From: Lachnospiraceae bacterium YSB2008
Lineage (GTDB): Bacteria; Bacillota; Clostridia; Lachnospirales; Lachnospiraceae
DNA: 64,000 bases
NCBI GenBank assembly: GCA_000687655.1
Contig: JHWR01000001.1
Coordinates: forward strand, 248,001-312,000
Reading direction: 5' to 3'
In this document: positions 8,209 through 64,000 of the stretch, in pieces
How positions within the stretch are numbered: the first letter of the stretch is position 1
Layout of the letters: every line of letters starts with the position of its first letter
Position numbers and translations under genes: made by a program
Notes under the pieces: model-generated
The model's input: the letters and a program-made list of their open reading frames with translations, nothing else
Database searches by the model: none
Told to the model about the DNA's origin: nothing

Positions 8209-10029
8209 TCAGTCCTCGTCCTTCTCCCACTCATATACCTTGTAATCCTTGATATCTTTTACCGTAAAGAAAATCTCAATTTTAACATCATCCATATCTT
8301 CTTCATGCAGATCCGTATTCGCCCGTACATTAAATGCATTTGGATCTGTTTTGTCAGCTGATATATTCATATCATAATGACTTATCTCACCGGTCGACTT
8401 ACGAGTAACAGAAAGCTCAGCTTTCTCAAGACTCTTCATACCTATACTGCTGATACGCAAAAGGCTGATAGCTGTTCCTCCGCCATCAGAGTTTTCCGTA
8501 CGAAATACAGCATGAGCTACTTTGTCCAGATCCTTGGTTGTGATTTTCACATTACTCTTATCTAAAAGGAACGCTGATGGCTTACCCATATATTCATCCA
8601 TTACTACAGCATCGTACTGCTCTATAAGAGTCTCTTTGTCTGAGTAAAGATTTGTTCCCAACCCAAGTCTGTCACCCGGGATAGTTACTCCAAGTGAGGC
8701 TAACGTTGTCGGAAAAACATCCATGGTTGTGTAGTCACGCTCACCATCCGTTTGTCTTTGACAATTTCCGTTAATTATATTGAAATACGTACGTCTCTTA
8801 TAATCCCCTGACACATTGTCACAGAAGTCAGTATCCATAGTCAGGTGATCTCCGGATAGTATTATAGTTGTATTCTCATAAAAGTCCTGTTGCTGTATCC
8901 AACTAACGAAGTCATAAACCTGTCTGCTCGAACATGAGAATACATCTGCATACCTGTTCCCGTCATGTTCATCTTTGCAGAGTCCGCAAACATATCCATC
9001 CTCAAAATGTGTATCGGCCGTAAGAAGTGTAATATTAAATGGAGCATCTTCTTTGGATAGATTAATTAGCTCCTCTTTGGCAAACTCAAAGAGTTTCTCG
9101 TCTTCATATCCCCACCAAACGAAATAATCGCTTGGAATCTTATCTTCTTTTACAGCCCAGTTATAATCCAGAAGTTCATAACTTCCATGCTGAGTGTAAT
9201 ACTTATCTCTACCACCGAATTTTGCTTCAGAACCTATCATAAGTTTCTGAGTATATCCGTTCTCCTGTAGAATATCCCCCATCGTTACGATATTTGGAAA
9301 GAACTCATCCTGACTCTCCATTCCATTTCCACCCAAAGATATCTGAAGCGGAAGTCCGGCACTCTGGGCAAACATACCGCCCATAGTCCAGTTTGTGCCT
9401 TGTAACGATACTCCTCCATTCAGTATGCCATCATATGAGGAAAAGTCTTCGCCTTCCTTGGATAATTCTGTCAGCTCGGGTATTATATCCTCCTGAAATG
9501 CCCCTCCATGTTCCGGATCTGTATAAGTCATCTCGGTTGATTCAAGAAATATGAATATCAGATTTCTCTTCTTTTCCGGAAAAACAATATCTACATCTCT
9601 TGGATCTATATAGTTATCTCCGATGAAATCATCACCGGCACCGAATTCTATCTCGACTCTGCTTTTAGCATATGAAAGAAGACCCATCCTGCTTTCCAGC
9701 AGATATCCGGCAAATACCAATAATCCTAAAGATCCAATGACATAAAAAGTGTATACAATCTTTGCCTTAGCCTTTTTGTGAGCAATCACCACTACAACTA
9801 CAGCCAGTATAGTGATAAGGACTGTGGCCAGGAAGTACGTCTTGAGATAATGCCTTACCACCTCAGGATTTGCCCCGCCAAGTGACTGCCCCATATGAAA
9901 TATCAGCTCACTTGCATTCATTTCTGACCAGTCTCTTATCAGCCAGATAACCGTAGCTGTAATGAGACCTGATAGAAATGTCATGGCAATGATTAATACC
10001 TTTACAATTGTTTTTAGTATTTTTTTCAT
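8209..10029 (-). CDS. OpgB/LtaS-like phosphoglycerol transferase (copy 1)
   Basis: A 606-residue protein with three or four N-terminal membrane helices and an extracytoplasmic alkaline-phosphatase-fold domain from about residue 150. Catalytic marks are IFIFLESTEMTY (metal-binding Glu), GTNWTMGGMFAQSAG (nucleophile Thr, most like OpgB/MdoB) and LSGDHLTMDTDF. OpgB moves phosphoglycerol onto periplasmic glucans and LtaS polymerises it. Here the likely job is adding phosphoglycerol to the polysaccharide made by this locus. The C-terminal ~120 residues form an extra domain. It is roughly two-thirds identical by eye to the protein at 12960-14777 over the catalytic region, so the two come from a duplication. 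Confidence 0.9.
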   Translation of the reverse strand: MKKILKTIVKVLIIAMTFLSGLITATVIWLIRDWSEMNASELIFHMGQSLGGANPEVVRHYLKTYFLATVLITILAVVVVVIAHKKAKAKIVYTFYVIGSLGLLVFAGYLLESRMGLLSYAKSRVEIEFGAGDDFIGDNYIDPRDVDIVFPEKKRNLIFIFLESTEMTYTDPEHGGAFQEDIIPELTELSKEGEDFSSYDGILNGGVSLQGTNWTMGGMFAQSAGLPLQISLGGNGMESQDEFFPNIVTMGDILQENGYTQKLMIGSEAKFGGRDKYYTQHGSYELLDYNWAVKEDKIPSDYFVWWGYEDEKLFEFAKEELINLSKEDAPFNITLLTADTHFEDGYVCGLCKDEHDGNRYADVFSCSSRQVYDFVSWIQQQDFYENTTIILSGDHLTMDTDFCDNVSGDYKRRTYFNIINGNCQRQTDGERDYTTMDVFPTTLASLGVTIPGDRLGLGTNLYSDKETLIEQYDAVVMDEYMGKPSAFLLDKSNVKITTKDLDKVAHAVFRTENSDGGGTAISLLRISSIGMKSLEKAELSVTRKSTGEISHYDMNISADKTDPNAFNVRANTDLHEEDMDDVKIEIFFTVKDIKDYKVYEWEKDED

Positions 10030-14777: not shown

Positions 14778-14802
14778 AACGTTTCCTTGCTTATAGCGAT
14801 AC

Positions 14803-29970: not shown

Positions 29971-30783
29971 CTATACTATTTCGATATGTTCTTCCTGCCT
30001 TTCTGAAACAGGAGGAAGCTGCATATAATCTCCATATATTCTAGTCAAATACTTATCATACTTATTAGGAACAGATATCTCGATATCTTCAAAAACAAGC
30101 TTTTTTGCCTTTCCAAAATAGCCATTCGGTACAAACTCTCTGAATCCATATCTTCCTGAAATATCACCTACAAGTTTGCACTTTTTCCCTTTAGTACTTT
30201 TAAAAACACTATCGAATTTATACTGTTCTTCTTTTAGATTGAGAACCCTATTGATTCTGAATAATTTAGCTGCAGTTATAAGAATCCTCTCATAAAGCGG
30301 CCTGTCAACATTTTTCCTTAACCTGTCAATATTACAAAAACCGATGCGCATTTTATAATAATAGTACTTTAACTTATATATAAATTGAGCAAATCTATCA
30401 TTGGGATATCCATCTATAGGAAAAACATCAATGCTCAAATAACTCACACTGTTTTCACCTAACCGTTGTTCTTTTACCCTGGTTTCCAGATCTCTGATTT
30501 TAAGCGGATAAAAATAAACATCCTCTTGGATAGAAAAATGCTCAACGTCGTATTTTTCAGAAAGATCATATCTAAACCGTTCAAGAAATCTATCATAATC
30601 TTTCCTGGGCATGGCAACATCCATATCATCATCCCATGGAATAAAGCCATCATGCCTTACTGCTCCAAGAAGAGTGCCTCCCACGGCGTAATACCTTAAA
30701 TTATTACTCTCGCAAACTCTGATAAAGTCCTTTAAAATATCTAATTCCTTTATTTGAATTTCTCTAAGTTTACTATTGCTCAT
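29971..30783 (-). CDS. licD: LicD-family phosphotransferase
   Basis: 270 residues with the LicD core: RYYAVGGTLLGAVRHDGFIPWDDDMDVAMPRKDYDRF split over the first 70 residues, where GGTLLGAVRH and WDDDMDVAM form the nucleotidyltransferase-fold site. The family transfers phosphocholine from CDP-choline, or phosphoribitol and similar groups from CDP donors, to sugars. The cytidylyltransferase at 6177 in the same locus could provide the CDP donor. No choline kinase (LicA), LicC or transporter (LicB) is in the window, so phosphocholine is not specifically supported. Confidence 0.92.
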   Translation of the reverse strand: MSNSKLREIQIKELDILKDFIRVCESNNLRYYAVGGTLLGAVRHDGFIPWDDDMDVAMPRKDYDRFLERFRYDLSEKYDVEHFSIQEDVYFYPLKIRDLETRVKEQRLGENSVSYLSIDVFPIDGYPNDRFAQFIYKLKYYYYKMRIGFCNIDRLRKNVDRPLYERILITAAKLFRINRVLNLKEEQYKFDSVFKSTKGKKCKLVGDISGRYGFREFVPNGYFGKAKKLVFEDIEISVPNKYDKYLTRIYGDYMQLPPVSERQEEHIEIV

Positions 30784-30802: not shown

Positions 30803-31669
30803 CTAAAAACTCTTCTCCGGTTTTTTTCCTATAAACTTTGCCTTCAAAAAGGTCATACCTTTATCTAATAGATTAATCTTCTCAGTATACATAAATGGTA
30901 TTTCTTTGATTTCCTCTTTTTTTATTTTTCCTTCATGTATCTGATAAGTAAGCCATACATTAAACAACCTTTCGCTCACTCTGCCAGGAAAACGATTCTC
31001 AAAGTCTGTAAGGGCATCAGAATCATCCTCCAGCCTCTTCTCAAGTTCAAAAAGAATATCAAATATCCATCTGCAATATTCATCCATAAGATCATGCCGC
31101 ATGATCATCATATTGAACATATATCCCCAGGTTCTATGGATTGCAATATCATATGATTCTTTATATTCAGGATACTTCTCAACCATTATATCACGTGCAG
31201 CATTTAATTCTTTTATTCTATGATTGTGCATATAATGCTGTTCGAGAGTCTCAATGTAATAGTGCCTCTTCTTTGGCACAAAAACCTTATACTTACTAAG
31301 GAGAGGTCTGATTTCTTTATAGTTCAGAACCCGTTCAGTTTTTTCTTTTACAATACTATATCGTGATCCTTGAAAATGTCTTCTGTAATGTACAAGTCCC
31401 AGATATTCAGAATCAAGATTCTTCCATGCCCAATAGAGTCCGGTCAATTCACAAAACTGAGCATTTTTATCAGAGATGTTTTCTCCTGTATTATCCTTTT
31501 GAAAACCAAAATCAAGAGGCATCCCCTCATCGTCAAACTTTCCTTCCGCTCCGACATGAAGCGGAATATACATCTTATCTTTTGGCATAGGATAAAGCTT
31601 ATGGGTTGCAATAACAACCCATATTTTAGCTTTCCTTTTGTAGTTTTCATTTATGAAAATCTTGGACAT
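30803..31669 (-). CDS. DUF4422 putative capsular glycosyltransferase
   Basis: 288 residues matching the DUF4422 pattern: KIWVVIATHKLYPMP at the start, YIPLHVGAEGK, GLYWAWKNLDSEYLGLVHYRRHF and the later MFNMMIMRHDLMDEYCRW. The family is common in capsule and exopolysaccharide loci and is thought to be a glycosyltransferase related to GT2/GT32-like enzymes. It follows the NlpC/P60 gene after 26 bases. Confidence 0.9.
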   Translation of the reverse strand: MSKIFINENYKRKAKIWVVIATHKLYPMPKDKMYIPLHVGAEGKFDDEGMPLDFGFQKDNTGENISDKNAQFCELTGLYWAWKNLDSEYLGLVHYRRHFQGSRYSIVKEKTERVLNYKEIRPLLSKYKVFVPKKRHYYIETLEQHYMHNHRIKELNAARDIMVEKYPEYKESYDIAIHRTWGYMFNMMIMRHDLMDEYCRWIFDILFELEKRLEDDSDALTDFENRFPGRVSERLFNVWLTYQIHEGKIKKEEIKEIPFMYTEKINLLDKGMTFLKAKFIGKKPEKSF

Positions 31670-31695: not shown

Positions 31696-33519
31696 TTAAT
31701 TAATAAAACGACGGATAGTAAACAGTTTTCTGCTTGATACGATTGCTGCTCCAACTACAACTCCGTGTGCCGGATCAGCCGCATGTACCATCTGTCCATT
31801 TCCTATATAAAGGCCAACGTGTCCGGCCTCTGCCTGGTCAAATGTACCTCTGCATATAACATCACCAGGAAGAGCGTTCTCGATACCTATAACTTCTGTT
31901 CCCTGCTTCTGCTGTGCTGAAGAACTTGGTGATGCATATATTCCAAACTGTTTAAATACATAATAAGTGAATCCTGAACAGTCAAATCCTGTTTCTGGTG
32001 ACTTTCCTGCGTGTACATATGGATAACCAACAAATTGAAGTGCGAAATTTACTACAGCCTCCCTGAGTGAACCGTTGTTGTTCATAGAAAGATTTTCCTT
32101 CATTTCCAGATAATCCTTCTTATCTCCTACCCAACTTATAGCCATTACATCATTGTGGAGATCATGTTTTGCAAAATACTCAATAGCCTTGAGATCATCA
32201 AATCTGGTAACCTTTCTTACTGCAGCGTTATTCTTGTAATAATAATTGAAATCATACACTGACATATATTCTACGTCCTTGTATATAGTTTCATAATTCT
32301 GCATCGTCTTGCATCCGGTTGCTTTTCTGCCTTCACGTTTTCCGTAATTGACATAGTGCATATAGTAACCTTTGAAGTTATCTTTAAATGCACGGCGAAG
32401 ATCTACATATCTATATGCATATGAAGTAAGGTCAAAGTTAGGACTTGATACTCTTCCTTCCTTCATTCCATATGTAATCAGGTGGTTAAGTACTGCTGTA
32501 TCATCAAGTGGATTAAACGCATTCTTAACATCAGGATTCTTCTGAGTATAATAGTAATAGTCATATACCGGAGAATAATCTACTCCATTCAGTTTTGTAA
32601 CAGGATTCTTAATAGATGTTGTTCCTGTAGCTTTTCTTCCTTCCTTGCTACCATATTTGACATAATGGTTGTAGTAAGACTTAAGATCAGTTCTAAACGC
32701 TACACGTAAATCCTGATATGCGTATGCGTAAGAATAAACGTTAAAATTCTCTTTTGCCTGACGGCCTTCTTTCATGCCATAATTAACAAAGTGCTGGAGA
32801 ATCTGAATATCATCCCCCTTGAATGCATTTTTAACATCACCATTGTGCTGAGTGTAATAATTGTAATCATATAAAGCCGAGTAATCTACACCATTCAATT
32901 TGGTAATTGCTCCAACAAGTTCCTTAACACCTGTTGTTTTTCTTCTGCCTTCCTTAAGACCATATCTAAGGTAATGAGTATAATAATCCGGAAGGTTAGA
33001 TCCAAATGCATTTCTAAGATCTGCATATGCATTCTTATACGAAAAAACATCGAAGTCAGTTGAACCCATTCTACCTTCTCTGACACCATACGTTGCAAAA
33101 TGTCTGAGTGTTGCGACATCATCCTCGCCAAACGCATTCCATATATCACCATATTTTGTAACATAGAAGTTGTAATCATATACCGGTGCATAATCCACAC
33201 CATTGTATACAGTTGTAAACTCATCTTTTACTATATTATCATTCTTTTCAGCTGGATCTGAAACAACCGAAACCATCTCCTGATTAGTAGATACAGTTCC
33301 TGCAGCTATAGTTGCATTATCTGTATTCTCGACCTTGTTTGCAACTGGAGAATTCTCTTCTATAACTTCTTCATTTTCATACTTGTCCATGCTTTCTTCA
33401 ACTACTACCTCTGCATCACCGGATGTTGCAGTTTCCGCAGCGTATGCTTTATTGCAAGGGACGAAAAGCCCCCCGGCAACAATGATTGAAAATAATAAAA
33501 CCTTGCTTATTTTTCTCAT
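31696..33519 (-). CDS. Secreted NlpC/P60 peptidoglycan hydrolase with surface repeats
   Basis: 607 residues. Signal peptide with AYAA near residue 28, then an acidic linker with ATSGDAEV, then seven half-repeats (residues ~101-460) and an NlpC/P60 domain (~485-607). The catalytic cysteine is in TGFDCSGF (~514), the histidine in AGHVGLYIG (~567) and the third polar residue in MVHA (~579), so it should cleave peptide bonds in the cell-wall stem. The seventh half-repeat is degenerate and has lost the EGR end. It is the only non-biosynthetic gene of the polysaccharide locus, between a Wzz-like gene (start 13 bases away from that stop) and the DUF4422 transferase. The same repeats are on the operon at 53378-64000. 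Confidence 0.95.
   Translation of the reverse strand: MRKISKVLLFSIIVAGGLFVPCNKAYAAETATSGDAEVVVEESMDKYENEEVIEENSPVANKVENTDNATIAAGTVSTNQEMVSVVSDPAEKNDNIVKDEFTTVYNGVDYAPVYDYNFYVTKYGDIWNAFGEDDVATLRHFATYGVREGRMGSTDFDVFSYKNAYADLRNAFGSNLPDYYTHYLRYGLKEGRRKTTGVKELVGAITKLNGVDYSALYDYNYYTQHNGDVKNAFKGDDIQILQHFVNYGMKEGRQAKENFNVYSYAYAYQDLRVAFRTDLKSYYNHYVKYGSKEGRKATGTTSIKNPVTKLNGVDYSPVYDYYYYTQKNPDVKNAFNPLDDTAVLNHLITYGMKEGRVSSPNFDLTSYAYRYVDLRRAFKDNFKGYYMHYVNYGKREGRKATGCKTMQNYETIYKDVEYMSVYDFNYYYKNNAAVRKVTRFDDLKAIEYFAKHDLHNDVMAISWVGDKKDYLEMKENLSMNNNGSLREAVVNFALQFVGYPYVHAGKSPETGFDCSGFTYYVFKQFGIYASPSSSAQQKQGTEVIGIENALPGDVICRGTFDQAEAGHVGLYIGNGQMVHAADPAHGVVVGAAIVSSRKLFTIRRFIN
32140..33219 (-). repeat. Repeat array of the NlpC/P60 protein: seven half-repeats
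   Basis: Alternating A and B half-repeats of 51-52 codons. A units read GVDY..VYDYNYY...GDV.NAF..DD...L.HF..YGMKEGR; B units read F.V.SY..AY.DLR.AF...L..YY.HY..YG.KEGR. Order A-B-A-B-A-B-A, the last A being degenerate. Confidence 0.9.
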
Positions 33520-33532
33520 ATTCCCATCCTTT

Positions 33533-35128
33533 CTAACTGATTACTACTGCTCCTATAACCTCTGTACCAAATTCATTACAAAGTTCAACTTCTCTCATGA
33601 TATGAGCGAACTTCGACTTATCTTTCTTCTCTACGAATACAACCATATCAGCTTCTGAAAGTTTTTGCATTGAATGCGCGTTGGATATAACTGATTCAGC
33701 CACATCAACCTTTATTTCTTTCGAGTCTGATTCAGCCTTCTCTTTTATTCTGTTTCTGAAGTCAACAGAAACTTCATCGCTTGAAGCTCCGATAAGGAGT
33801 ATATTCTTTGCGTCTGCCTTCTTGGCACTGATTCCTATATTGGAGCCTATTACTTCAAGCTTATTGTCCACATCATCTGCACCTTTTCCAAATATCCAAT
33901 CAAGGAGTTTATCTATTGGATTAGTTCTTTCATCAGATGATACATTAATCTCACCAATCACCATAAGATGTAATGCGTCTCTTATATCGTCAGCAGTATG
34001 AAGCTTTGATGAAATGATATACTTAATTGCATACCAGCACGCAACAAGGAAGATTCCTACTATAAGACCTAACGCCATGTACTTCTTGGACACGTGACCT
34101 TTGGTTACTGTCATTATAGCCTGATTCGAATCAGTGGAATCACCGACCGTTCCCTTTTCGTCGCTTTCTGAAAGGTCATCCGACGTTACATTCCCTTCTT
34201 CATCCAGAAGTTCCTCTATCTTCGAAGCTATAAGAGCTTCATAATACTTCTTTGAATCATCTGTAAACTTGCTTCCAATGTAATCCATATCATACTTCAA
34301 AGAATACATGTCATTATTTATGCTTCGCTGATATGAAAGGATATTATCACTCCTCTGAGTATAAGCACTACTTTCCAAGAAATATATGTCATGATCGTAG
34401 CCCTCTTTAATCTTTTCAGTTATATCATCCATATGATTCATGATGATATCTGTGATAGCACGACACATCTCATAATCCGTACCGTATACACTTACAGTCA
34501 GAGCTTTCTCACCTTCTACATCCACATACACAAGGTCAGGAACATCTATTTCTTCAACTCTGTCGCCCATAGCCTCATGAATTTCGTTGATTATTGGATC
34601 ACTCAGTATCTCTGCTCTGTAAAGTGCCCTGAGACTGATCGGTTTGCTTAAGCTTGTCTCAACCTCACCATTTTTAGTTACACTTCCGTTCTCGTTATCA
34701 GCTTCATCAAATGATATAACATGTTTTTCAGAATGATCTTCTATAACATAGTAACTTGTGATAGTTGGAATACTTGTAGGATCCAGCTTCATAAATACTG
34801 AGTTTTCAGCATATTCTTTAAGTTTCATATACTTATTGAAATAAACTATATACTGATCAGCGGTCTGTTCAACTACAACAGCATTGCCTTCAGAAAGACT
34901 TGCTCTGAGATTTTCAAGTTCACTCTCTTTACTTGCCGGTTCAACCACCGATGCTTTTGATGACTTTATATAGCTGAACGCCCCTGCCACCACGGCTCCC
35001 AAGAGCATCCATATGATCATAACTCTCCATTTACAGAATACATGATATATGAGGTCGAGCAAATCAATCTCAATGTCCTCTTTATAGTCAGAGTAGTTCA
35101 TATATTTTATCAATTCCTTGTTATCCAT
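33533..35128 (-). CDS. Wzz/CpsC-like chain-length protein fused to a degenerate kinase domain
   Basis: About 531 residues from ATG 35128 (GAGAGG upstream); the TTG at 35161 is less likely. Membrane helix at ~35-58 after DIEIDLLDLIYHVFCKW, a long outside region to about residue 345, second helix (MALGLIVGIFLVACWYAIKYI), then ~165 cytoplasmic residues. That last part looks like a tyrosine-kinase (CpsD) fold: KNILLIGASSDE, DVAESVISN and EVIGAVVIS. The P-loop glycine/lysine residues and the tyrosine cluster are missing. It opens the polysaccharide locus. A paralogue with the same defect is at 24552. Confidence 0.88.
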   Translation of the reverse strand: MDNKELIKYMNYSDYKEDIEIDLLDLIYHVFCKWRVMIIWMLLGAVVAGAFSYIKSSKASVVEPASKESELENLRASLSEGNAVVVEQTADQYIVYFNKYMKLKEYAENSVFMKLDPTSIPTITSYYVIEDHSEKHVISFDEADNENGSVTKNGEVETSLSKPISLRALYRAEILSDPIINEIHEAMGDRVEEIDVPDLVYVDVEGEKALTVSVYGTDYEMCRAITDIIMNHMDDITEKIKEGYDHDIYFLESSAYTQRSDNILSYQRSINNDMYSLKYDMDYIGSKFTDDSKKYYEALIASKIEELLDEEGNVTSDDLSESDEKGTVGDSTDSNQAIMTVTKGHVSKKYMALGLIVGIFLVACWYAIKYIISSKLHTADDIRDALHLMVIGEINVSSDERTNPIDKLLDWIFGKGADDVDNKLEVIGSNIGISAKKADAKNILLIGASSDEVSVDFRNRIKEKAESDSKEIKVDVAESVISNAHSMQKLSEADMVVFVEKKDKSKFAHIMREVELCNEFGTEVIGAVVIS

Positions 35129-35207
35129 TCGTGGAAACCTCTCATTATTATAATAAGGCAAATTAGTCTTTCTAAAGCCCGCGGATAATAAGCTTTTTTC
35201 TACCGCG

Positions 35208-35278
35208 AGCAGGATACGGGAGTCGAACCCGCCTATCCAGCTTGGGAAGCTGGCGCCCTACCGATAGACTAATCCTGC
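35208..35278 (-). tRNA. tRNA-Gly (anticodon CCC)
   Basis: A full cloverleaf reads on the minus strand: acceptor GCAGGAT paired with ATCCTGC and discriminator T; the anticodon arm CCAGC-TTCCCAA-GCTGG gives anticodon CCC for GGG; the T arm has GGCGGGTTCGACTCCCGT-type pairing with TTCGA. The CCA end is not encoded. The 5' end lies 13 bases from a strong -10 box. Confidence 0.93.
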
Positions 35279-53377: not shown

Positions 53378-55501
53378 CTATCTATACCAGATATTATAAT
53401 CAACTCTTCCGTTGATACCCTTTATAGTTCCTGAACTTGAATACTGCCATATTTCATATGGGAGTCCATGCTTATCAAGTATATTTCTGTTCAGGTTGAT
53501 ATCTGTTGGATAATAAGCAAACCATCTAGGATACTGTGTAAGCTGTTCTGAATAGAATGGCCAGTAGTATCCGCCATAGTATCCAGGCTTATATCCGAGC
53601 TGCTTTACTCTCTCACAGAAAGCTTTGATTACATTTGTTCTCTGCTGAGCAGAGATGTTATTGTGTCTCGTTCCATTTCCATTTTCATCCTTCTGAGACT
53701 CAGAATCGATGAATATAGGAAGATCCACTTTACCACCATACTTCTTGATGAGTCCTACCGTAAACTCTGCTTCCTCCATAGCCTCTTCTTCATTTATAGC
53801 CTGTGTAAAGAAGTAAAGACCTATAGGAACTCCTGCCTTATTGGCATTGATGATATTGTTCATCAACTGAGTGTCTTCAACCAGTCTAAGTGAACCATAG
53901 CCTCTGAATCCGGCTCTAAGTATGGCAAAATCAACACCGTCAGCCTTAACTGCATTCCAGTCAATAACCCCCTGGTAATGAGAAACATCTATTCCGAACC
54001 AGGAAGTTATATTTCCGTTTTCATCTATATGATACTTACGTCCATTTATGGTTATATTTGAGCGCTCGTTGAAAAGTGCGATGTATCTGGTGTAAGTGCT
54101 CTTATCAGCTCCGGCTTTCGCATCACGGTTTTCCTTAAGTCCATACTTTACGAAATGCTCGAGTACTGCTTGATCATCATCTCCCAGCGCTTTTACAACG
54201 TCAGGATTGTGAGCCACATAATAGTTATAATCGTATATTGAACTAAGGTCTACACCACGGTATGTGGTTATAGGATCAACTATTTTAGTTGTTCCTGTAG
54301 CCTTACGACCTTCTTTCTTACCATACTGGATGTAATGCTTATAATACTTTGGAAGATCTTTTCCAAACGCCTGTCTTAAGTCTCTGTACTGATATCTGTA
54401 TGACCTTACATCAAAGTTCTTTGATCCCTGGCGTCCTTCCTTCATTCCATAATTAACGAAATGGCGAAGTGCGAGGAAATCATTGTTAAAGCCGAAAGCT
54501 TTCTTGATATCAGAATACTTATTGAAGTAAAAATCCGCATTGAATACTGCACTGTAATCAGTATTGTCACCACGAAGCTTTGTTACTGACCCAACTCTTG
54601 TAGAAACTCCAGTTGTTTTTCTGCCTTCACGCTTTCCATAATTCACGTAATGCATATAGTAACTTGCATAGTCACCTTCAAATGCCTGTCTGAGATCAGC
54701 ATATGCATTCATATATGAATTAACATCAAATGAACCGCTTGAAGTTCTTTTCTCCTTCATTCCATACTTAACGAAATGCTGGAGTGTCTTATCTTCGTCG
54801 CCATTGAAGGCTTTCTTTACATCGGCATTCTTGGAAAGATAGTAATCATAATTGTAAACTGCTGAATAATCTACACCATTTAACTTAGTTACAGCGCCCT
54901 TAAGCTTGGTAACGCCTGTAGATACTCTACCCTCTTTCTTGCCGTAATTCATGTAATGAATGTAATACTTAGCGTAGTCATAACCAAAAGCAGCCCTGAG
55001 GTCTCTGTAAGCGTTTCTGTATGATTTAAGATCAAATGCCTCCGATGCCCTTCTTCCTTCGTTCATTCCATATGTTATGAAATGACGAAGTGTCTTCTCC
55101 TGATCGCCGTTAAACGCCTTTTTTACATCAGGATTCTTAGCAATATAATAGTAATAATCATATACAGCTGAATAGTCTACGCCATCAAGAGATGAAAGTG
55201 CCGGAGCCGGAACAGTAGTTATCATCTTGCTGTCGGTATCCTTTATTGACGATGTAGCATTTGCTGGTTTTGCGTCAACCTCGTCTGCCTTTGTATCTGC
55301 AGTATTCCCTACATTTCCATCTACAACTGCATTTTTATCAACTTTTGCATTTTCATCTACAGCTGTCTCAATAACTGCATCTGTAGATGTGGCAATATCC
55401 TCTTCGGCATGTGCCGTGATGCTTCCGGTCCCCAGCATGAAAGCCATGACAGGAATCGAAGCCGTTATAAATACTGCCTTCGCAAGTTTTCTGTTAAACA
55501 T
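53378..55501 (-). CDS. Secreted GH25 lysozyme with N-terminal surface repeats
   Basis: About 707 residues from ATG 55501 with AGGAGG upstream; a longer frame would overlap the preceding gene. Signal peptide ending near HAEE (~31), linker with ATSTDAV, seven half-repeats (~101-461), a short segment INGRKYHIDENGNITSW, then GH25 (~500-707). Catalytic marks: FGIDVSHYQGVIDW (first Asp) and LPIFIDSES (the D-x-E pair), so it should cleave between N-acetylmuramic acid and N-acetylglucosamine. Fourth gene of the operon. Confidence 0.94.
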   Translation of the reverse strand: MFNRKLAKAVFITASIPVMAFMLGTGSITAHAEEDIATSTDAVIETAVDENAKVDKNAVVDGNVGNTADTKADEVDAKPANATSSIKDTDSKMITTVPAPALSSLDGVDYSAVYDYYYYIAKNPDVKKAFNGDQEKTLRHFITYGMNEGRRASEAFDLKSYRNAYRDLRAAFGYDYAKYYIHYMNYGKKEGRVSTGVTKLKGAVTKLNGVDYSAVYNYDYYLSKNADVKKAFNGDEDKTLQHFVKYGMKEKRTSSGSFDVNSYMNAYADLRQAFEGDYASYYMHYVNYGKREGRKTTGVSTRVGSVTKLRGDNTDYSAVFNADFYFNKYSDIKKAFGFNNDFLALRHFVNYGMKEGRQGSKNFDVRSYRYQYRDLRQAFGKDLPKYYKHYIQYGKKEGRKATGTTKIVDPITTYRGVDLSSIYDYNYYVAHNPDVVKALGDDDQAVLEHFVKYGLKENRDAKAGADKSTYTRYIALFNERSNITINGRKYHIDENGNITSWFGIDVSHYQGVIDWNAVKADGVDFAILRAGFRGYGSLRLVEDTQLMNNIINANKAGVPIGLYFFTQAINEEEAMEEAEFTVGLIKKYGGKVDLPIFIDSESQKDENGNGTRHNNISAQQRTNVIKAFCERVKQLGYKPGYYGGYYWPFYSEQLTQYPRWFAYYPTDINLNRNILDKHGLPYEIWQYSSSGTIKGINGRVDYNIWYR
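54119..55201 (-). repeat. Repeat array of the GH25 protein: seven half-repeats
   Basis: Order A-B-A-B-A-B-A, units of 51-54 codons. Each A unit has NPDVKKAF or a near form followed by HFV.YGMKEGR; each B unit has AY.DLRQAF...YYMHYVNYGKREGR. The third A unit has a three-residue insert, and the last A ends KENRDA. Confidence 0.9.
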
Positions 55502-55511
55502 CAGTTTCCTC

Positions 55512-58500
55512 CTACTGAACAACAATTCTGCTGTTAAACGCTTCATAAGCGTATTTCTTTCTTGGTATCAGGTGTTTATCAGCATGATTACCCGGCATCA
55601 TTATTGTGCTGAAGAAGCTTTCGGTTGCCCTTTCAACACATTCCTGATCAGTTTCACCTTCATTTGGCTTGATGTTCTTGTAAGTATTGAAGTATGTTGT
55701 CTTCTTGGCATTTTCATAGCGCATGAAGAATGCAAGCTGTACATCTGCAGAATTCCATGCATAGTTATAATAATTTGCCTCTACCTTATTTGTTCCCGGA
55801 TTATAGTGCAGAAGGTTATATGCTCTCTGACCTGTCCACTGTATTATACCCATACCTGGATAGTAGAGTTCATTGTACTTATAACCATTCTTGCTTATGG
55901 CAAGTCCCATATTTGCATAACATGGGAACAGATAGTTTATACAATACCCGTTAAGATCACTCAGAATAGTTGCCCTGTCAGGAAATCCTCCAACCCATTC
56001 TGCTTCTATGATATCAAATTTGAAATTTGTCTCAGCCTTCATACATCCCATGATTCCGGCTATAGCATAATCAGAGTATCCTTCAGCTCTGAGGTATTCC
56101 CATATAAGCTTCTCCGGCTGCGATACATTTACAGGAATGGCTATGAACTTTGTATCATTGCCCTTGGCATTTCTGCCTTCCTTTGCACCATACTTTATAT
56201 AATGTGTATAGTAATTAATCATGGTCGTGCCAAAGGTTCTCTGAAGATCCAAGTATCTGTTGGCATATGAGAAAACATTGAACCACTCACTTGGACGTCT
56301 GTTTTCTTTCATACCATAGTTAACGAAGTGCTGAAGAAGCTTATCGTCACAGAATCCGAAAGCCTGTCTCAGATCGCCGTTATGCTGCAGGTAATAATTG
56401 CCGTCGTATATACAGCTGTAATCAACACCGTTATATACCGTTGCATAGCCTCTCAGATTACTTACGCCTGTAGCAATTCTTCCTTCACGTTTTCCGTAGT
56501 TTATATAGTGAATATAATACTTAGCATAATCATTTCCGAAAGCACGTCTGAGGTCCGGATAAGCATACGCATATGAAGTAAGACTGAATGTAGCGATAGT
56601 CGCTCTTCCTTCCTTCATACCATAGTTAACAAGATGCTTAAGTGCAGCGATATCATTATTCCAGCCAAATGCAGCCTTTACATCTGCATTCTTAGTGAAA
56701 TAATAATCCGCATTGAATATATCGCTGTAATCAACACCGTTCATCTTTGTTACAGTACCGACTCTCTTGGTGCATCCGGTAGTTTTTCTACCTTCACGCT
56801 TACCGTAATTCAGGTAATGTATATAATACTTCGCCCAATCATCAAAGAATGCATTTCTGAGATCAGGGTACTGATTCCTGTATGAATCAAGTGAGAAGTT
56901 AGCACTTGCCTGACGACCTTCCTTCATACCATAAACCACGAAGTGTCTTATAGCCTTTTCTCTGTCTTCCTTACTGCCTGAACCAAAAGCCTTCTTAAGA
57001 TCACCATACTTACCTATATAGTATCTATAATCATATATCGATGAGTAATCGACACCGTTATATTTGTTTATTGCATCCTTATCAACAGTATTTGTATTGG
57101 TATTTGTGTTCGTGTTTGTATTTGTGTTTGTTGACTTCTTCTTAAGTCCGTAATAGCTTACGATAGCTTCCGCATCAGCCTTTGCAAGAGCCTGAAGCTT
57201 AGCGTCAGTTGAAAGGAAGCTGTTATAATCACTCTCCGTAGTCAAATATGCATGCTTTATCATGATTGCCGGTAAACCTGCAAGCTTAGGGCGACTGAGC
57301 AGTCCCCACCACTCCATATTGGTTCCGTCATCATAAGTAGTATTCCGAGGTTTACTTACGAGAGCCCCATTATTAACAAGTCCAAGCTTTGCGAGTCTGT
57401 TTACTATCTCTTGTCCCAATTTTGATCCAATTGTATTAAAGTCAGCTCTAAGTCCAGTGTTTTGAATTATTACATAAGCACCAACTTCTGTTTTATTATC
57501 TCCATCACCAACACCTATAGAAATGAATATATCTGCACTATTATTCTTAGCATAATCTACTCTCTTCTGATTAGCTGCCACTTCATCAGAAGGATTGTAA
57601 TCATACATAGAATACCTTGGAACATTAAGCACTACACAATCATATTCAGCAAGATAGTTTGAGAGATATTGACGAATTTTCCCATTTATCTCATTTTCCT
57701 GAACAGTCTTGCCACTGTATGTTTTAACAATACCTGTTTTGTATGAAGTCTTCTTTGTATCATCCTGTTCTGCATTAAGTGCTATAACATACTTTCCATT
57801 TGACTTGCCGAGATTTGACTCGCCATTTGGGCTGTACAGTGTTATATCATCAGCTATTGGCTGTTCGGTATACTCATCAGTTGGTATGGAAAGTGAATTG
57901 CTTGCTACATTCTCATCAGTAACAGACTCTGTCTCGTCACCTTCAACTATCCATGCGTCGGCCTCTATCTCAACTTCTCTGTCTACACCAAATGAAGCTG
58001 CACATTCATCATCACCGAAAGGTATGAACTGATAGTTTCCTGAAAGACCTGCTTCGAAGCTAACGACTATCTCATCCTCTGAAGCCACATCAACTGCAGA
58101 AGCATCGAGCACAGTCTCTTCACCTGTGATTGCATTCTTAACAACGAATGCATCCTCGAGAGCCGCTGCCTTTTCAGCTACAGAATCAGCAGCTGCATCA
58201 GAGTCAGTTGCATCCTCATCTGTTCCGAGCTTGATATATACAAACTGATCTTCTCCGGACTTGAGATTGTCGTATCCGACCACCATGTAGTCTATGGACG
58301 GCACAAATGCATCCTCGGATACCTCTCCATCCAAAGTATCTGTATCAGCCGGTACATTTGTCACATCCATAACATTTGTAAATGCTTCAGTGTTTGGTTC
58401 ATTCTTTGCATCTGTTTCAGATGCTGCTGGTCTACTTTCTGCCTCGTCCTCTGCCGCAAAAATATCCGTGGTCGTTCTATTTACCGAAACGCCCAGAAGC

Positions 58501-58547
58501 ATTGCAGCTGCTAGTCCCATTGCCAGGATTCGCTTAAGTTTTCGCAT
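55512..58547 (-). CDS. Secreted protein: degenerate amidase-3 domain, repeats, phage-tail-type lysozyme
   Basis: About 1,011 residues from ATG 58547, just after the stop of the protease gene. Signal peptide (~1-31), acidic linker region and an unassigned domain (~80-205), an amidase-3-like domain (~245-468), a (Thr-Asn)n linker (~473-485), six half-repeats (~490-801) and a phage-tail lysozyme-like domain (~805-1011). In the amidase part the zinc and catalytic sites are replaced: VIALNAEQDD stands for LDPGHGG, ISIGV for SIHxN, and IMIKH for LVExG, so it is probably inactive. The lysozyme part keeps IAGIMGCMKAETNF (Glu ~837) and GIIQWTGQR and is likely active on peptidoglycan. Confidence 0.9.
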   Translation of the reverse strand: MRKLKRILAMGLAAAMLLGVSVNRTTTDIFAAEDEAESRPAASETDAKNEPNTEAFTNVMDVTNVPADTDTLDGEVSEDAFVPSIDYMVVGYDNLKSGEDQFVYIKLGTDEDATDSDAAADSVAEKAAALEDAFVVKNAITGEETVLDASAVDVASEDEIVVSFEAGLSGNYQFIPFGDDECAASFGVDREVEIEADAWIVEGDETESVTDENVASNSLSIPTDEYTEQPIADDITLYSPNGESNLGKSNGKYVIALNAEQDDTKKTSYKTGIVKTYSGKTVQENEINGKIRQYLSNYLAEYDCVVLNVPRYSMYDYNPSDEVAANQKRVDYAKNNSADIFISIGVGDGDNKTEVGAYVIIQNTGLRADFNTIGSKLGQEIVNRLAKLGLVNNGALVSKPRNTTYDDGTNMEWWGLLSRPKLAGLPAIMIKHAYLTTESDYNSFLSTDAKLQALAKADAEAIVSYYGLKKKSTNTNTNTNTNTNTNTVDKDAINKYNGVDYSSIYDYRYYIGKYGDLKKAFGSGSKEDREKAIRHFVVYGMKEGRQASANFSLDSYRNQYPDLRNAFFDDWAKYYIHYLNYGKREGRKTTGCTKRVGTVTKMNGVDYSDIFNADYYFTKNADVKAAFGWNNDIAALKHLVNYGMKEGRATIATFSLTSYAYAYPDLRRAFGNDYAKYYIHYINYGKREGRIATGVSNLRGYATVYNGVDYSCIYDGNYYLQHNGDLRQAFGFCDDKLLQHFVNYGMKENRRPSEWFNVFSYANRYLDLQRTFGTTMINYYTHYIKYGAKEGRNAKGNDTKFIAIPVNVSQPEKLIWEYLRAEGYSDYAIAGIMGCMKAETNFKFDIIEAEWVGGFPDRATILSDLNGYCINYLFPCYANMGLAISKNGYKYNELYYPGMGIIQWTGQRAYNLLHYNPGTNKVEANYYNYAWNSADVQLAFFMRYENAKKTTYFNTYKNIKPNEGETDQECVERATESFFSTIMMPGNHADKHLIPRKKYAYEAFNSRIVVQ
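56145..57080 (-). repeat. Repeat array of the amidase/lysozyme protein: six half-repeats
   Basis: Order A-B-A-B-A-B between the Thr-Asn linker and the lysozyme domain. The first A unit has a four-residue insert (SGSKEDRE region); the last A ends KENRRP. Confidence 0.9.
57087..57132 (-). repeat. Hexanucleotide tandem repeat coding a Thr-Asn linker
   Basis: About seven ACAAAY-type hexamer copies in frame code alternating Thr and Asn residues between the amidase-like domain and the repeats. Length changes would alter the linker without breaking the frame. Confidence 0.85.
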
Positions 58548-58548
58548 A

Positions 58549-61365
58549 TCAGTACGCCTTTCTTCCTTCCTTGCTACCATACTTAATATAGTGCAGATAA
58601 TAATTCTTCATGTCCGATCCGAACGCTTTCCTCAGATCGGCATATCTGTTTTTATATATATTTACATTGAAGGTCGACTTAGAAAGTCTTCCCTCTTTCA
58701 TGCCATAATTTACAAAGTGCTTCAGAGTTGCCTCATCATCAAGTCCAAAGACTCTCTTGACATCGGCATTCTTAGAAACATAGTAATTATAGTCATAAAC
58801 GAGGCTGTAGTTAGTACCGCCATAGCTCACAGCGCAGCCCTGCATAGTAGTAACGCCGGTCGCACGTCTGCCCTCTCGCTTACCGTAATTCATATAATGT
58901 GTATAGTACTTCGTAAGGTCATTCTTGAAGGCACGTCGGAGATCCGGGTATGCATAAGCATAAGAATATACGCTGAATGTGCTGCTTGCCTGTCGACCTT
59001 CCTTCATTCCGTAATTAATGAAATGCTTAAGAGCACTTATATCATCATTGGTTCCGAATGCATTGGCTATATCACCATTATGATTGAAATAGTAATCTGC
59101 ATCGAATAAGCCACTGTAATCTACACCGTTATACTTCGTTACTGTACCGACTCTCTTGGTAGTTCCCGTAGCCTTCCTGCCTTCTCGTTTTCCATAATTG
59201 ATATAATGGAGATAATACTTCTTGTTATCCTCGCCGAAGGCATTTCTTAGATCTACATATGCAAGCTTATATGAATAGTAATTAAAGGTTGACTTAGCCT
59301 GGCGCCCTTCCTTCATTCCGTAATTAACGAAATGCTTAAGAGCTGCCGCATCATTTGTTCCGAATGCTTTCCAGAGGTCACCATACTTTCCTACATAGTA
59401 GTTGTAATCATATACATCCTTATAATCAACACCGGCATATACCGTTGCATAGCTTGACTTTATGGTCTTATATGATTCTGTAGGGGTATTGTTGTTTCTG
59501 CTGGTATCGTTTTTTGTAAAAGCCTTGATTCTTGCACAGATTCCCATGCCTTTTCCGGTGACGGAACCACCGCCATCCAATGGGAACGTTGTCTCATATA
59601 TATCTTCTACCTTGCCGCCTTCAATGAGATATGACTGACCGGCAGCAGTTGAACTGTGATAAGAATAGTACTGACTTGTTGAAGAGGCATCTATGTATAT
59701 ATCTACATGATCTCCATCAGCATCATCAGCATTAACATCCCAAAGTGTAAATACAACCGAGAATCTGTCTCCTTTATTCAGAGTAATAGTCTTTCCGAGA
59801 TTAATCCTCTGAAGTCCTGCGTAATCCGTAGTTCCTGTTACAGGTGATGACAGCATCGCCGTTCCGGATTTAGGATTAGATGTTGAAGGATTCTTATATA
59901 TCTGAAGCGAATACTTAACATGGTCATCTGCAAGTGCTATGGAAACTGCTGAAAGTTTTTCCGAAGCGGCTGCACTGGCTTTAAATACATTTGCTACAGA
60001 ATCTCCATTGTCTATCGGATATGTATAACTGCCAAACCCACCATCATATTGATAATTGTTATCATACTGAGAAGTTGATTCAAATCTGTATGCTACAACA
60101 TCATCCAAAGTACTGTCTTCATAGGATAACCAGAAGTAGCTGTTACTGCTGCCCCAGCTATTCTTAATAAGCCATGCGCCGTTGTTTTCAGGATGTAGCT
60201 TTCTATTCTTGTTATCATAATGATCAAAATTATCCTTATCATAATTATCATCCCACCCCACTATCATTACAGCATGATTTGCTGATGTTGAATAAGCTCG
60301 TGGTGTGTAATATGATACACCGTCCGATCCCATACACGACGATTGGAAATACAGTCCTGTTATGGCTGCTCCATATGTGAGAATAAGGTTTTTTACATAG
60401 TCAACATTAACTATAGAACCCGTCGGATGCGAGTTAATATCTGAAGGAACTATCCTTGTTTCTGCAAGGTGAGCCACGTCTTTACTGTATTCAAAGGATG
60501 CATCAAGATCCCTGTATGCCCAGCTGTAAGGTACAGTAGATTCATTCGTTACACCTACCCATGAAGCCAGTGCCATAGAAGCAAGCATCGGATTTCCACC
60601 ATTTGATATGTAGTTTTTACCATTCGTACCAACTGTATTATAATCACCCTTGAGAAGCCCCAAAGGGTCAGTTGTTTTACCGCTGTTAAATGTAAAGTAG
60701 GCAAGCTGCATCTCCGAATAATCAGGTGTAGTTCTTGAAGCATTTCCTGTTGCAAGTCCCTGTTTAAGCATAGATGTTTCCGCCATACCTGTTGCCGTGA
60801 ATGCCCAGCAGGTATTATATGCGCCCTGATCCTTTACGGACGTAATAATCCCAAGATTTCTGGAATCATAGCTGGTATAGGAATTACCAAGAACTCCAAC
60901 TTCGTTAGGATCCGGAGCGTAAATACTGTTCTCATCAGTATCTTCGCCTACTTCATCATTTCCCGAACCCATTGCCGGCTCTGCATCCTGAGGTGTAGCA
61001 TCTCCCGGTGACGCATTATCAGAGTCACCTTTGTCATCTGAAGCATCTGAACCAACATTACTGTCATCAGTATCAGCGTCGACTGTTCCGTCTGCAGTCT
61101 CACCATCAGCTTCTTCAATGAGATCCTGCATCTCGTCTGACAGAAGGTCATCCTCATGTGATTCTTTTGTATCGTAAGTAGTATTGGTATCTATCGAAAT
61201 ATATCCATCCGAACCGTAGCCTTTAACAGCATCATCCGGAATGTGGATACCCCCGCTGGCATAAGAAACCTCTTCCGCAGCATTGGACACACCAAGAGAA
61301 CTGCCCTGCGCAGCCGCAGTCAGTATCATGCCTATAGAGAGAATTATTGCCAACCTTTTTCTCAT
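58549..61365 (-). CDS. Secreted papain-like (C1A) cysteine protease with C-terminal surface repeats
   Basis: 938 residues. Signal peptide (~1-30), a pro-region or linker rich in Asp, Glu and Gly with ASPGDATPQDAEP, then a C1A protease domain: DQGAYNTCWAFTATG (Cys ~186), SANHAVMIVGWDD (His ~364) and AWLIKNSWGSSN (Asn ~402). A beta-rich lectin-like domain follows (~435-620), as in related clostridial proteases, then six half-repeats to the C-terminus (~639-938). All three catalytic residues are present. It starts four bases after the cellulase stop codon begins, so the genes are co-transcribed. Confidence 0.94.
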   Translation of the reverse strand: MRKRLAIILSIGMILTAAAQGSSLGVSNAAEEVSYASGGIHIPDDAVKGYGSDGYISIDTNTTYDTKESHEDDLLSDEMQDLIEEADGETADGTVDADTDDSNVGSDASDDKGDSDNASPGDATPQDAEPAMGSGNDEVGEDTDENSIYAPDPNEVGVLGNSYTSYDSRNLGIITSVKDQGAYNTCWAFTATGMAETSMLKQGLATGNASRTTPDYSEMQLAYFTFNSGKTTDPLGLLKGDYNTVGTNGKNYISNGGNPMLASMALASWVGVTNESTVPYSWAYRDLDASFEYSKDVAHLAETRIVPSDINSHPTGSIVNVDYVKNLILTYGAAITGLYFQSSCMGSDGVSYYTPRAYSTSANHAVMIVGWDDNYDKDNFDHYDNKNRKLHPENNGAWLIKNSWGSSNSYFWLSYEDSTLDDVVAYRFESTSQYDNNYQYDGGFGSYTYPIDNGDSVANVFKASAAASEKLSAVSIALADDHVKYSLQIYKNPSTSNPKSGTAMLSSPVTGTTDYAGLQRINLGKTITLNKGDRFSVVFTLWDVNADDADGDHVDIYIDASSTSQYYSYHSSTAAGQSYLIEGGKVEDIYETTFPLDGGGSVTGKGMGICARIKAFTKNDTSRNNNTPTESYKTIKSSYATVYAGVDYKDVYDYNYYVGKYGDLWKAFGTNDAAALKHFVNYGMKEGRQAKSTFNYYSYKLAYVDLRNAFGEDNKKYYLHYINYGKREGRKATGTTKRVGTVTKYNGVDYSGLFDADYYFNHNGDIANAFGTNDDISALKHFINYGMKEGRQASSTFSVYSYAYAYPDLRRAFKNDLTKYYTHYMNYGKREGRRATGVTTMQGCAVSYGGTNYSLVYDYNYYVSKNADVKRVFGLDDEATLKHFVNYGMKEGRLSKSTFNVNIYKNRYADLRKAFGSDMKNYYLHYIKYGSKEGRKAY
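58552..59451 (-). repeat. Repeat array of the papain-like protease: six half-repeats
   Basis: Order A-B-A-B-A-B, ending with a short final B unit (KEGRKAY) at the C-terminus. Units are 51-52 codons except the last (43). Confidence 0.9.
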
Positions 61366-61368
61366 ATA

Positions 61369-64000
61369 TTACCTCGCTCCTTTTCTTCCTTCTTTCTTAC
61401 CGTACTTTATGTAATGCATATAGTAATCACTCATGTTATTACCAAATGCCCTACGTAAATCTCCGTATGTATTCTTGTAATAATTAACATTAAATGACTT
61501 GGATGCAACTCGTCCTTCCTTCATTCCGTAATTTACAAAATGCTTAAGTACTGCTACATCATCATTTCCAAACACCCTTCTGATATCCGGATTATTCTGA
61601 AGGTAGTAATTGAAGTCGTATACATCCTTATAATCAACTCCGCCTATCCTTGTAACATATCCAACCGGATTTGCTACGCCTGTAGTCTTATTTCTGCCTT
61701 CCTTGCTTCCGTAGTTGATATAGTGAATGTAATACTTCTCTATATCTCCTTCAAATGCAGCCCTGAGATCAGCATATGAATTCTTATATGAACGAACATC
61801 GAAGCTTGCCTTGCCCTGACGTCCTTCCTTCATTCCGTATGTCACAAAATGCTTAAGTACTGCCTGGTCATCAAGGTCAAAAGCCTTCTTGATGTCAGGA
61901 TACTTCTTGATATAGAAATTGTAGTCGTAAACCTTGCTGTAATTCACTCCGTCAAGTGTTGTTGCATATCCACTTGCTGTACTGCATGCAGCACCGGACC
62001 TTCCTTCTTTCTTTCCATACTGGATAAAATGGAGATAATACTTAACAAGGTTATTCTTAAATGCATGTCTGAGGTCGCCATATCTGTATGCATAGCCTCT
62101 GACATTAAATGTAGCGATTCCCTGACGACCTTCCTTCATTCCGTAGTTTACGAAATGCTGGAGTGTCTTGATATCGTCGTTACCGAATGCCCTCTTTATA
62201 TCTGCGTTATTATTAGAATAATAGTTGTAATCATATACAGCCGAATAATCTACACCATTCAGCTTCTTTACACTGCCGACAGGATTTGCTACGCCTGTAG
62301 CCTTACGTCCTTCCTTCTTACCATAATTGATATAATGCTTATAGTAAGATGCGAGATCTGTTCCAAATGCCTCACGAAGATCTACATTAGCATTTTTATA
62401 TGACTTAACATCAAATGTAGATTTCGCCTGACGTCCTTCCTTCATACCATAGTTTACGAAGTGCTGAAGAACCTTGTATGGATCATTTCCAAGTGCATTC
62501 TTCACATCAGGATTATTCTTAACATAGTAATTAAAATCATAAACAGCTGAATAATCAACACCTTCATATACAGTTACAGGACCGTCTGTATACATTCCAG
62601 GATCAACAACAGCCTCCCCCTTGTGTCCACTGTATATAGCCGCTGCAGCTGCAACAAGTGTTGCATTATAATCTATAGCAACCTCATTACACTGATAATC
62701 ATCAGCTGTATCTCTGTAACCACCGTTTGAAGGTCCGCCTACAAGAGCTCCAAGAAGAACATGCGCCTGCTTGGTTGTACCCTTAGGGCCGCCTGTATAG
62801 CCTGAAGCTGCTCTGTGGTGAGGATACTTAGAACTATTGGATGCAAATCCGACTACGTAGCACTGATTCTTAGGATTCTGACCGAGAAGATAGTTCATCT
62901 GACCCTCTGCCCAGCTTCTGTATGTCTTTGTGCCTGTAAGTTTATCGTACATAAGTGCTGTATACTGAAGTGAAGTATTGTATCTTGCTGAGCCCCACTC
63001 ATTTACACACTTATACTTTCCGTCTAAAGTACTTCCGCCAATACTGTTCTGCATTGTCTTAAATGCCTGTGAATTTCCGTTATAATATGCAACGGCCGGT
63101 GCAACATTATCCCATCCAAGTGGCCAATAATAATTCTTTGCCTTTCCGTCTTTATAGTAACTGTTGAATTCATTCAGGTACTGTCTGTCACCTGTAACCT
63201 TGTAAAGCATTATAGCTGCAAGGCAGTAGTCATCTTCCCAGCCTGAAGAAGCATAAAAACTTCCTGCAGATTTGTTGGTTCCTTTATTTGTTCTCTTTGC
63301 ATAATCAAAGAGCTTCTTAGCTGTATCGAGATACTTCTGTCCGCCAAAGTTCTTGTAGTGCATTGCAAGTGCTGCGGCTGAAAGGCTTACTATATCTGTT
63401 GATGGATCACTTGAGCTTGAGAAATAAGCTGTTCTGTTGCTCTGTGGCTGGTTTGAAGGATTTCCCCAATAACCGTGGTCATATCCGCCACCGCCCTGGC
63501 CTACCTGAACGCAGAAGCCATCAACTGATGTACCGTTTGCGTTTAAAACGGCACATTTTACAAAATAATCTGCAAAACGTGTTGTTATATTTCTGAGATG
63601 TCCTGTCTGACCTGCAGACTCGTAAGCATCCTTATTTGTATCGTAGCTCATGCCCAGAACGAATGCTGAATATGCAGCAGGAAGTCCGAACTTTACATGA
63701 TCACCGGCATCATGATAACCGCCTGTGAGATCAACCTTTACTGTAACTCCGTCACTTCTTCTGTACTGATACCAGTCGTATGTATGGCAGTTACTTCTCC
63801 AGCCCTTCTGAAGACTGGCTGTTGATACGTCGCCTCCGCACATATTTGCATCGTAGAAATAAAGAGATTCCTGAAGAAGCTTTGCATAATTGTATGGAAC
63901 TGCCGCCTCCACTTCATTCGCTCCGGTATTCTTAGCGTAATCTGTTATTCCTGTTACAGGTGCCATAAATGCAGTACCGACTGCAAGCATTCCTGCAAGT
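61369..64000 (-). CDS. Secreted GH9 cellulase with C-terminal surface repeats (5' end cut by window)
   Basis: At least 877 codons; the frame stays open past 64000 and the visible start of the protein (LAGMLAVGTAFMAPV) is the core of a signal peptide, so only a few residues are missing. The GH9 domain begins YNYAKLLQESLYFYDANMCG and has DLTGGYHDAGDHVKFG (catalytic base Asp pair), PHHRAASGYTGGP and CNEVAIDYNATL (catalytic acid Glu). GH9 enzymes cut beta-1,4-glucan. There is no carbohydrate-binding module or dockerin; the C-terminus is eight half-repeats. First visible gene of the four-gene operon. Confidence 0.95.
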   Translation of the reverse strand, partial: LAGMLAVGTAFMAPVTGITDYAKNTGANEVEAAVPYNYAKLLQESLYFYDANMCGGDVSTASLQKGWRSNCHTYDWYQYRRSDGVTVKVDLTGGYHDAGDHVKFGLPAAYSAFVLGMSYDTNKDAYESAGQTGHLRNITTRFADYFVKCAVLNANGTSVDGFCVQVGQGGGGYDHGYWGNPSNQPQSNRTAYFSSSSDPSTDIVSLSAAALAMHYKNFGGQKYLDTAKKLFDYAKRTNKGTNKSAGSFYASSGWEDDYCLAAIMLYKVTGDRQYLNEFNSYYKDGKAKNYYWPLGWDNVAPAVAYYNGNSQAFKTMQNSIGGSTLDGKYKCVNEWGSARYNTSLQYTALMYDKLTGTKTYRSWAEGQMNYLLGQNPKNQCYVVGFASNSSKYPHHRAASGYTGGPKGTTKQAHVLLGALVGGPSNGGYRDTADDYQCNEVAIDYNATLVAAAAAIYSGHKGEAVVDPGMYTDGPVTVYEGVDYSAVYDFNYYVKNNPDVKNALGNDPYKVLQHFVNYGMKEGRQAKSTFDVKSYKNANVDLREAFGTDLASYYKHYINYGKKEGRKATGVANPVGSVKKLNGVDYSAVYDYNYYSNNNADIKRAFGNDDIKTLQHFVNYGMKEGRQGIATFNVRGYAYRYGDLRHAFKNNLVKYYLHFIQYGKKEGRSGAACSTASGYATTLDGVNYSKVYDYNFYIKKYPDIKKAFDLDDQAVLKHFVTYGMKEGRQGKASFDVRSYKNSYADLRAAFEGDIEKYYIHYINYGSKEGRNKTTGVANPVGYVTRIGGVDYKDVYDFNYYLQNNPDIRRVFGNDDVAVLKHFVNYGMKEGRVASKSFNVNYYKNTYGDLRRAFGNNMSDYYMHYIKYGKKEGRKGAR
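61372..62580 (-). repeat. Repeat array of the GH9 protein: eight half-repeats
   Basis: Order A-B four times, the longest array here. Units of 51-52 codons, the last B shortened at the C-terminus (KEGRKGAR). The third linker segment differs (GAACSTASG in place of the usual GATG/GVANPVG). Confidence 0.9.

Follow-up and report, generated by a model that had tools for sequence, protein, structure and literature searches.

The stretch of Lachnospiraceae bacterium YSB2008 DNA analysed here (the window, 64,000 nucleotides of contig C1) encodes a predicted secreted NlpC/P60 wall hydrolase that carries seven copies of a half-repeat and is surrounded by glycan genes. The features discussed are listed in window coordinates.

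8209..10029, minus strand: OpgB-like phosphoglycerol transferase, in the polymer locus of the original prediction (second copy at 12960-14867)
29971..30783, minus strand: LicD family protein (PF04991, 169 bits)
30803..31669, minus strand: DUF4422 putative transferase (PF14393, 272 bits)
31696..33519, minus strand: NlpC/P60 wall hydrolase with repeats, predicted secreted, 607 aa (profile and sequence reading)
31753..32028, minus strand: NlpC/P60 catalytic domain, aa 498-589 (PF00877, 74 bits)
32149..33183, minus strand: seven half-repeats, that is three A+B units and one unpaired half, aa 113-457
33533..35128, minus strand: chain-length (Wzz/CpsC-like) protein (weak PF02706 and TIGR01006 matches)
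53378..55546, minus strand: GH25 muramidase-domain repeat protein, 7 half-repeats
55512..58580, minus strand: Amidase_3 and Phage_lysozyme2 repeat protein, 6 half-repeats
58549..61365, minus strand: papain-like and lectin-like repeat protein, 6 half-repeats (matches 4d59/4ci7)
61369..64000, minus strand: GH9-domain repeat protein, 8 half-repeats (start beyond the window, at C1:312035)

The wzz-like, repeat-NlpC, DUF4422 and LicD genes are all co-directional, with 13 bp between the repeat-NlpC gene and the wzz-like gene upstream, 26 bp between it and the DUF4422 gene downstream, and a further 19 bp to LicD. The original prediction placed a seven-half-repeat NlpC/P60 gene between a chain-length gene and a DUF4422 gene with short gaps, and this arrangement holds. 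The neighbours are as it described, except that the DUF4422 gene falls just outside the interval 31696-35128 given for the group. The chain-length identity of the upstream gene (frame 33533-35161, with an ATG at 35128) stands as a weak match, its PF02706 score of 15.8 bits being below the cut-off of 25.5. A tRNA-Gly gene (anticodon CCC; window 35207-35278, minus strand) lies directly upstream of the wzz-nlpC-DUF4422-licD run. The order repeat-NlpC, wzz-like, DUF4422, licD, GT2 is retained in the congener G214 (L185), so the place of the target gene is not accidental and its linkage to DUF4422 and licD is real; a search of the G214 genome found no OpgB-like gene.

The 607-aa protein belongs to the NlpC/P60 family, with a PF00877 match at 74 bits against a Pfam cut-off of 23 and both catalytic motifs in place, the Cys in DCSG (starting at aa 513) and the His in GHVG (aa 566), and by this domain it presumably cuts peptidoglycan peptides. 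Its signal sequence, by direct reading, is MRKISKVLLFSIIVAGGLFVPCNKAYAAE. The half-repeats occupy aa 113-151, 155-193, 216-254, 258-296, 318-357, 361-399 and 421-457 and score 33-68 bits each, the seventh being degenerate.

The repeat and the proteins that carry it

The half-repeat is 39 aa long and occurs as alternating A and B halves, separated by about 4 residues within a unit and by about 22 residues between units, which gives a period of about 103 aa. Each half has invariant Y, D, H, G, E and R residues throughout the 37 units of this genome. No family in Pfam, NCBIfam or PHROGs covers the half-repeat, and no description of it was found in a literature search confined to papers outside subscription. 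Among established wall-binding modules, CWB2 (PF04122) gave no Pfam match at E 0.1 for the target protein or 0.01 for the set of repeat proteins; choline-binding repeats (PF01473) were found neither in the target nor, at E 0.001, in the genome as a whole; and CW_7 (PF08230) gave no match in Pfam, nor in the PDB by profile or fold. The best hit of a PDB profile search with the repeat had an E of 0.21, which is the level of chance.

The AlphaFold2 model of the repeat array, built from 47 sequences (pLDDT 96.4, pTM 0.86), is a long regular array with three helices per half-repeat, and a single A+B unit modelled alone reached a pLDDT of 94.6. Fold searches of the PDB with the array and the single unit returned nothing at E 0.001. 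A VIA comparison found no match at Z 2 among 43 chains for one model and 3 chains for the other, numbers small enough that it weighs lightly both as evidence for a new fold and as exclusion of CW_7 by fold. In a structure search of viral models the best matches were giant-virus glycosyltransferases and other glycan enzymes, and tblastn detected repeats with 22-34% identity on plasmids from alphaproteobacteria and on a few others, where they sit in RTX-like calcium-binding proteins, M10 peptidases and glycosyltransferases. The repeat superfamily is thus wider than Gram-positive walls.

The genome encodes 14 envelope or surface enzymes that carry the repeat, which is the only part they have in common. 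Their catalytic domains comprise two polysaccharide deacetylases, a YkuD L,D-transpeptidase, three NlpC/P60 (one of them encoded at C1:203728), M23, GH25, Amidase_3 with Phage_lysozyme2, papain with a lectin-like part, GH9, transglutaminase-like and CAP domains. Thirteen of the 14 genes lie within C1:191-330 kb of the 2.69-Mb genome, among glycan genes; no glycan neighbour was found at the lone off-cluster gene (CAP, on C3), nor at a repeat-free NlpC/P60 gene on C3. The papain/lectin-like part of the 58549-61365 protein matches the solved structures 4d59 and 4ci7, which we take to be those of Cwp84, a surface cysteine protease of C. difficile; Cwp84 carries CWB2, whereas the resembling protein here carries the repeat instead. 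A surface protein of 1693 aa (C8:68009-73090; L035:2009-7090), which combines S8 peptidase, SpaA and T-Q ester domains, has two weak half-repeat matches, and this possible fifteenth repeat protein is excluded from the count of 14. The protein encoded at C1:197195-199072 (L025:12195-14072) has a C-terminal domain at aa 455-625 that lacks a Pfam match and is similar to the catalytic part of the phage lysins L254, L269, L282 and L302; judged from sequence, it resembles an NlpC/CHAP-like peptidase domain, as yet unnamed, common to host and phage.

Phages also carry the repeat. Two scans of IMG/VR gave 13 and 61 repeat loci, with contigs partly shared between the scans. A search with a small set of queries recognised a lysin domain in 36 of 55 distinct viral repeat proteins; by eye, several of the remaining 19 resemble amidases or CHAP-type lysins. 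Pfam confirmed Amidase_2, Phage_lysozyme, and Glucosaminidase with Amidase_3 on these lysins; PHROGs returned endolysin for four of five viral repeat proteins tested, and small holin-like membrane ORFs adjoin several of the lysin genes. The repeat forms the C-terminal module, with exactly one A+B unit in 44 of the 55 proteins and two units in nine. Endolysin cell-wall-binding domains are usually recognised in this way, as a non-catalytic C-terminal module joined to a variety of unrelated catalytic domains. Choline-binding repeats are another module that anchors phage lysins. Long tape-measure-like viral proteins (L244:294-5642, L298 and L303) have two or three half-repeats near the C-terminus.

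Distribution and linkage to glycan genes

At a presence threshold of E 1e-8 the repeat was found in 40 genomes of a family-wide set of 200 (close to one per genus). It was also found in 26 of the 61 congeners, with 10 to 52 units in 11 of these; it is patchy within this one genus. Named relatives are found mostly among Lachnospiraceae MAGs; Sharpea azabuensis and a small number of others also have it, and some of the bins may be contaminated.

Among the 61 congeners, the 11 repeat-rich genomes (at least 10 units) were compared with the 35 that are repeat-free. Wzt_C, representing the Wzm/Wzt exporter, was present in 11/11 repeat-rich and 11/35 repeat-free congeners (p 5e-5), a figure to be read, like those that follow, in view of genomes that are related, MAGs that are incomplete, statistics that ignore kinship, and thresholds (10 units; 10 or 5 choline-binding copies) picked after the tables were seen. 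The relation was inverse for LicD (7/11 versus 34/35, p 0.009) and for the presence of at least 10 choline-binding repeats (1/11 versus 25/35, p 4e-4), the largest counts per congener standing as at least 121; the OpgB-like gene was found in 5/11 versus 26/35 (p 0.14). With approximately one genome per genus, Wzt_C occurred in 12 of 14 repeat-rich genomes versus 14 of 32 repeat-free ones (p 0.01), LicD in 8/14 versus 20/32 (p 0.75), and at least five choline-binding repeats in 0/14 versus 10/31 (p 0.02). The link between Wzt_C and the repeat is neither exclusive nor complete, since 11 repeat-free congeners have Wzt_C and four that carry one to four units, some of them incomplete genomes, lack it.

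The original prediction named as a check whether the repeat family is always accompanied by this type of locus; on that check it fails, the OpgB-like gene being missing from six of the 11 repeat-rich congeners and LicD from four. Co-occurrence across the 61 congeners rules out both as obligate partner genes. In the congeners LicD tracks the choline-binding repeats (PF01473) rather than the 39-aa half-repeat. Nearly all repeat-free congeners have LicD, and choline-binding repeats are numerous in most of them; a separate link between licD and a choline anchor is possible in the genus.

The association with the exporter extends to gene position. In seven of the 11 repeat-rich congeners a repeat gene is found no more than 4 kb from Wzt_C; in the other four the two are on different contigs among the matches listed. 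In this genome the Wzm/Wzt and dTDP-rhamnose genes lie at C1:312-317 kb, just beyond the window end, and the block rfbC-wzm-wzt-unknown-GH9-papain-amidase-GH25 is collinear here and in the congeners G214 and G257. A 498-aa protein lacking a Pfam match is encoded between wzt and the repeat genes (C1:312222-313718; L029:12222-13718). Its relatives occur in 33 of the 61 congeners, as many as have Wzt_C and, among the matches listed, the same genomes; it is possibly a polymer-finishing enzyme. Between about 182 and 336 kb of contig C1 repeat genes are intermingled with glycan genes, so the glycan locus does not end at window position 35128, as had been supposed.

Wzm, Wzt_C, RfbA or RfbC was found at 18 of 72 non-redundant repeat loci against none of 36 control regions, and any glycan gene at 36 of 72 against 1 of 36; the p-values of this linkage are descriptive, since the controls, taken from repeat-bearing genomes, consisted largely of the initial 20 kb of arbitrary contigs and were not a random draw, and glycan genes habitually cluster. 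OpgB adjoins none of the 72 loci and LicD one.

Probable anchor role and candidate ligand

The array of 39-aa half-repeats is very probably a non-covalent cell-wall anchor, because it is the common part of 14 envelope and surface enzymes, forms the C-terminal module of endolysins, and, where abundant, is mostly not accompanied by choline-binding repeats. The best candidate for its ligand is the Wzm/Wzt glycan, since the exporter is present in every repeat-rich congener, and within 4 kb in seven, and OpgB and LicD are often missing; this correlation gives the exported polymer an even or slightly better chance of being what the repeats bind. The joint reading, that the repeat is a wall anchor and its ligand probably a Wzm/Wzt-exported secondary wall glycopolymer, not the OpgB/LicD polymer, is assigned a probability of roughly 0.55. 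Against it stand the distant repeats in alphaproteobacterial and giant-virus proteins, which have no such wall, and the position of the target gene itself beside DUF4422 and licD, kept in G214; the paralogue at 31696-33519 may have a ligand of its own. The proposal of a wall-binding module linked to the genes for its ligand has accordingly survived as regards the anchor and the glycan linkage, and has been revised as regards the polymer named. The further suggestion that the hydrolase may open the wall for polymer attachment gained no support.

On the joint reading the repeat would be a module, as yet unnamed, that does for secreted wall and surface enzymes what CWB2, SLH and choline-binding repeats do. 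The NlpC protein would be exported, and its three and a half repeats would then keep it on the wall, where its catalytic domain would act on peptidoglycan peptides; the repeats would bind the Wzm/Wzt polymer linked to dTDP-rhamnose genes, and phages would use the same anchor module on their endolysins. A more far-reaching version, to which somewhat less than even odds are given, is that a glycan-binding fold not previously described anchors proteins in part of the Lachnospiraceae, recognises a rhamnose-type Wzm/Wzt polymer and has replaced choline-binding anchors lineage by lineage, with phages following.

Peptidoglycan itself, the ligand of CW_7 and LysM, is unlikely to be what the repeats bind; if it were, a particular polymer locus would be unnecessary. 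The wall-enzyme and endolysin partners are of the same classes as those of CW_7 (PMC5705596), the half-repeat, at about 40 aa and with three predicted helices, is of similar size, and Wzt_C occurs outside repeat genomes too; yet a universal ligand would require neither the patchiness of the repeat within the genus nor its tracking of a glycan exporter, and no CW_7 match was found in Pfam or the PDB. Binding to the OpgB/LicD/DUF4422 polymer of 4014-35128, the ligand originally put forward, is improbable: the operon-like gaps of 13 and 26 bp and the gene order retained in G214 speak for it, but the OpgB-like gene and LicD occur in five and seven of the 11 repeat-rich congeners and are commoner in repeat-free ones (26 and 34 of 35), they adjoin almost none of the 72 repeat loci, and G214 has no OpgB-like gene. 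There is very little likelihood that the repeats form an outward carbohydrate-binding adhesin or a spacer and leave the protein unattached to its own wall, as the GH9 cellulase partner, the long regular array of the model and the distant relatives in RTX-like proteins might suggest, because most partners act on the cell's own wall and phage endolysins on the host wall, and a single C-terminal unit on lysins is not an inter-domain spacer.

Comparison with known anchors

An anchor bound to a Wzm/Wzt polymer would give a means of wall attachment and a candidate receptor to surface proteins of gut and rumen Lachnospiraceae that are known only by their catalytic parts. It would suggest how autolysins and a cellulase of these bacteria remain cell-bound, and it would predict which strains could be open to attack by matching phage lysins. 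As congeners with and without the repeat exist, the idea that the anchor travels with the polymer genes is directly testable.

The closest parallel in organisation is with the CWB2 proteins of C. difficile, in which CWB2 binds PSII, the polymer locus directly follows the protein cluster on its downstream side and each of three CWB2 units is required (PMC4973711). Like CWB2, the repeat is a tandem module of about 100 aa, present mostly as three units and placed at either terminus of surface and wall enzymes, whose genes adjoin a wall-polymer locus and include a papain/lectin-like protease. Unlike CWB2, the repeat has no PF04122 match, a single unit suffices on phage lysins as opposed to three, and the polymer genes differ from the PSII locus, with Wzm/Wzt and Rfb found at the repeat genes. 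Choline-binding repeats anchor autolysins and surface polysaccharidases in Lachnospiraceae (PMC2914790); they are unrelated to the half-repeat in sequence, and the two are largely alternatives within the genus. CW_7, which recognises a peptidoglycan fragment (PMC5705596), is likewise a three-helix unit of about 40 aa on lysins (Cpl-7-type endolysins) and wall enzymes, whereas here two alternating halves make one unit, and no sequence or fold match was found. The alphaproteobacterial RTX-like, M10 and glycosyltransferase proteins and the giant-virus proteins are related by 22-34% identity or by similar predicted structure, and they differ in belonging to hosts without a Gram-positive wall and in having no wall-enzyme partners.
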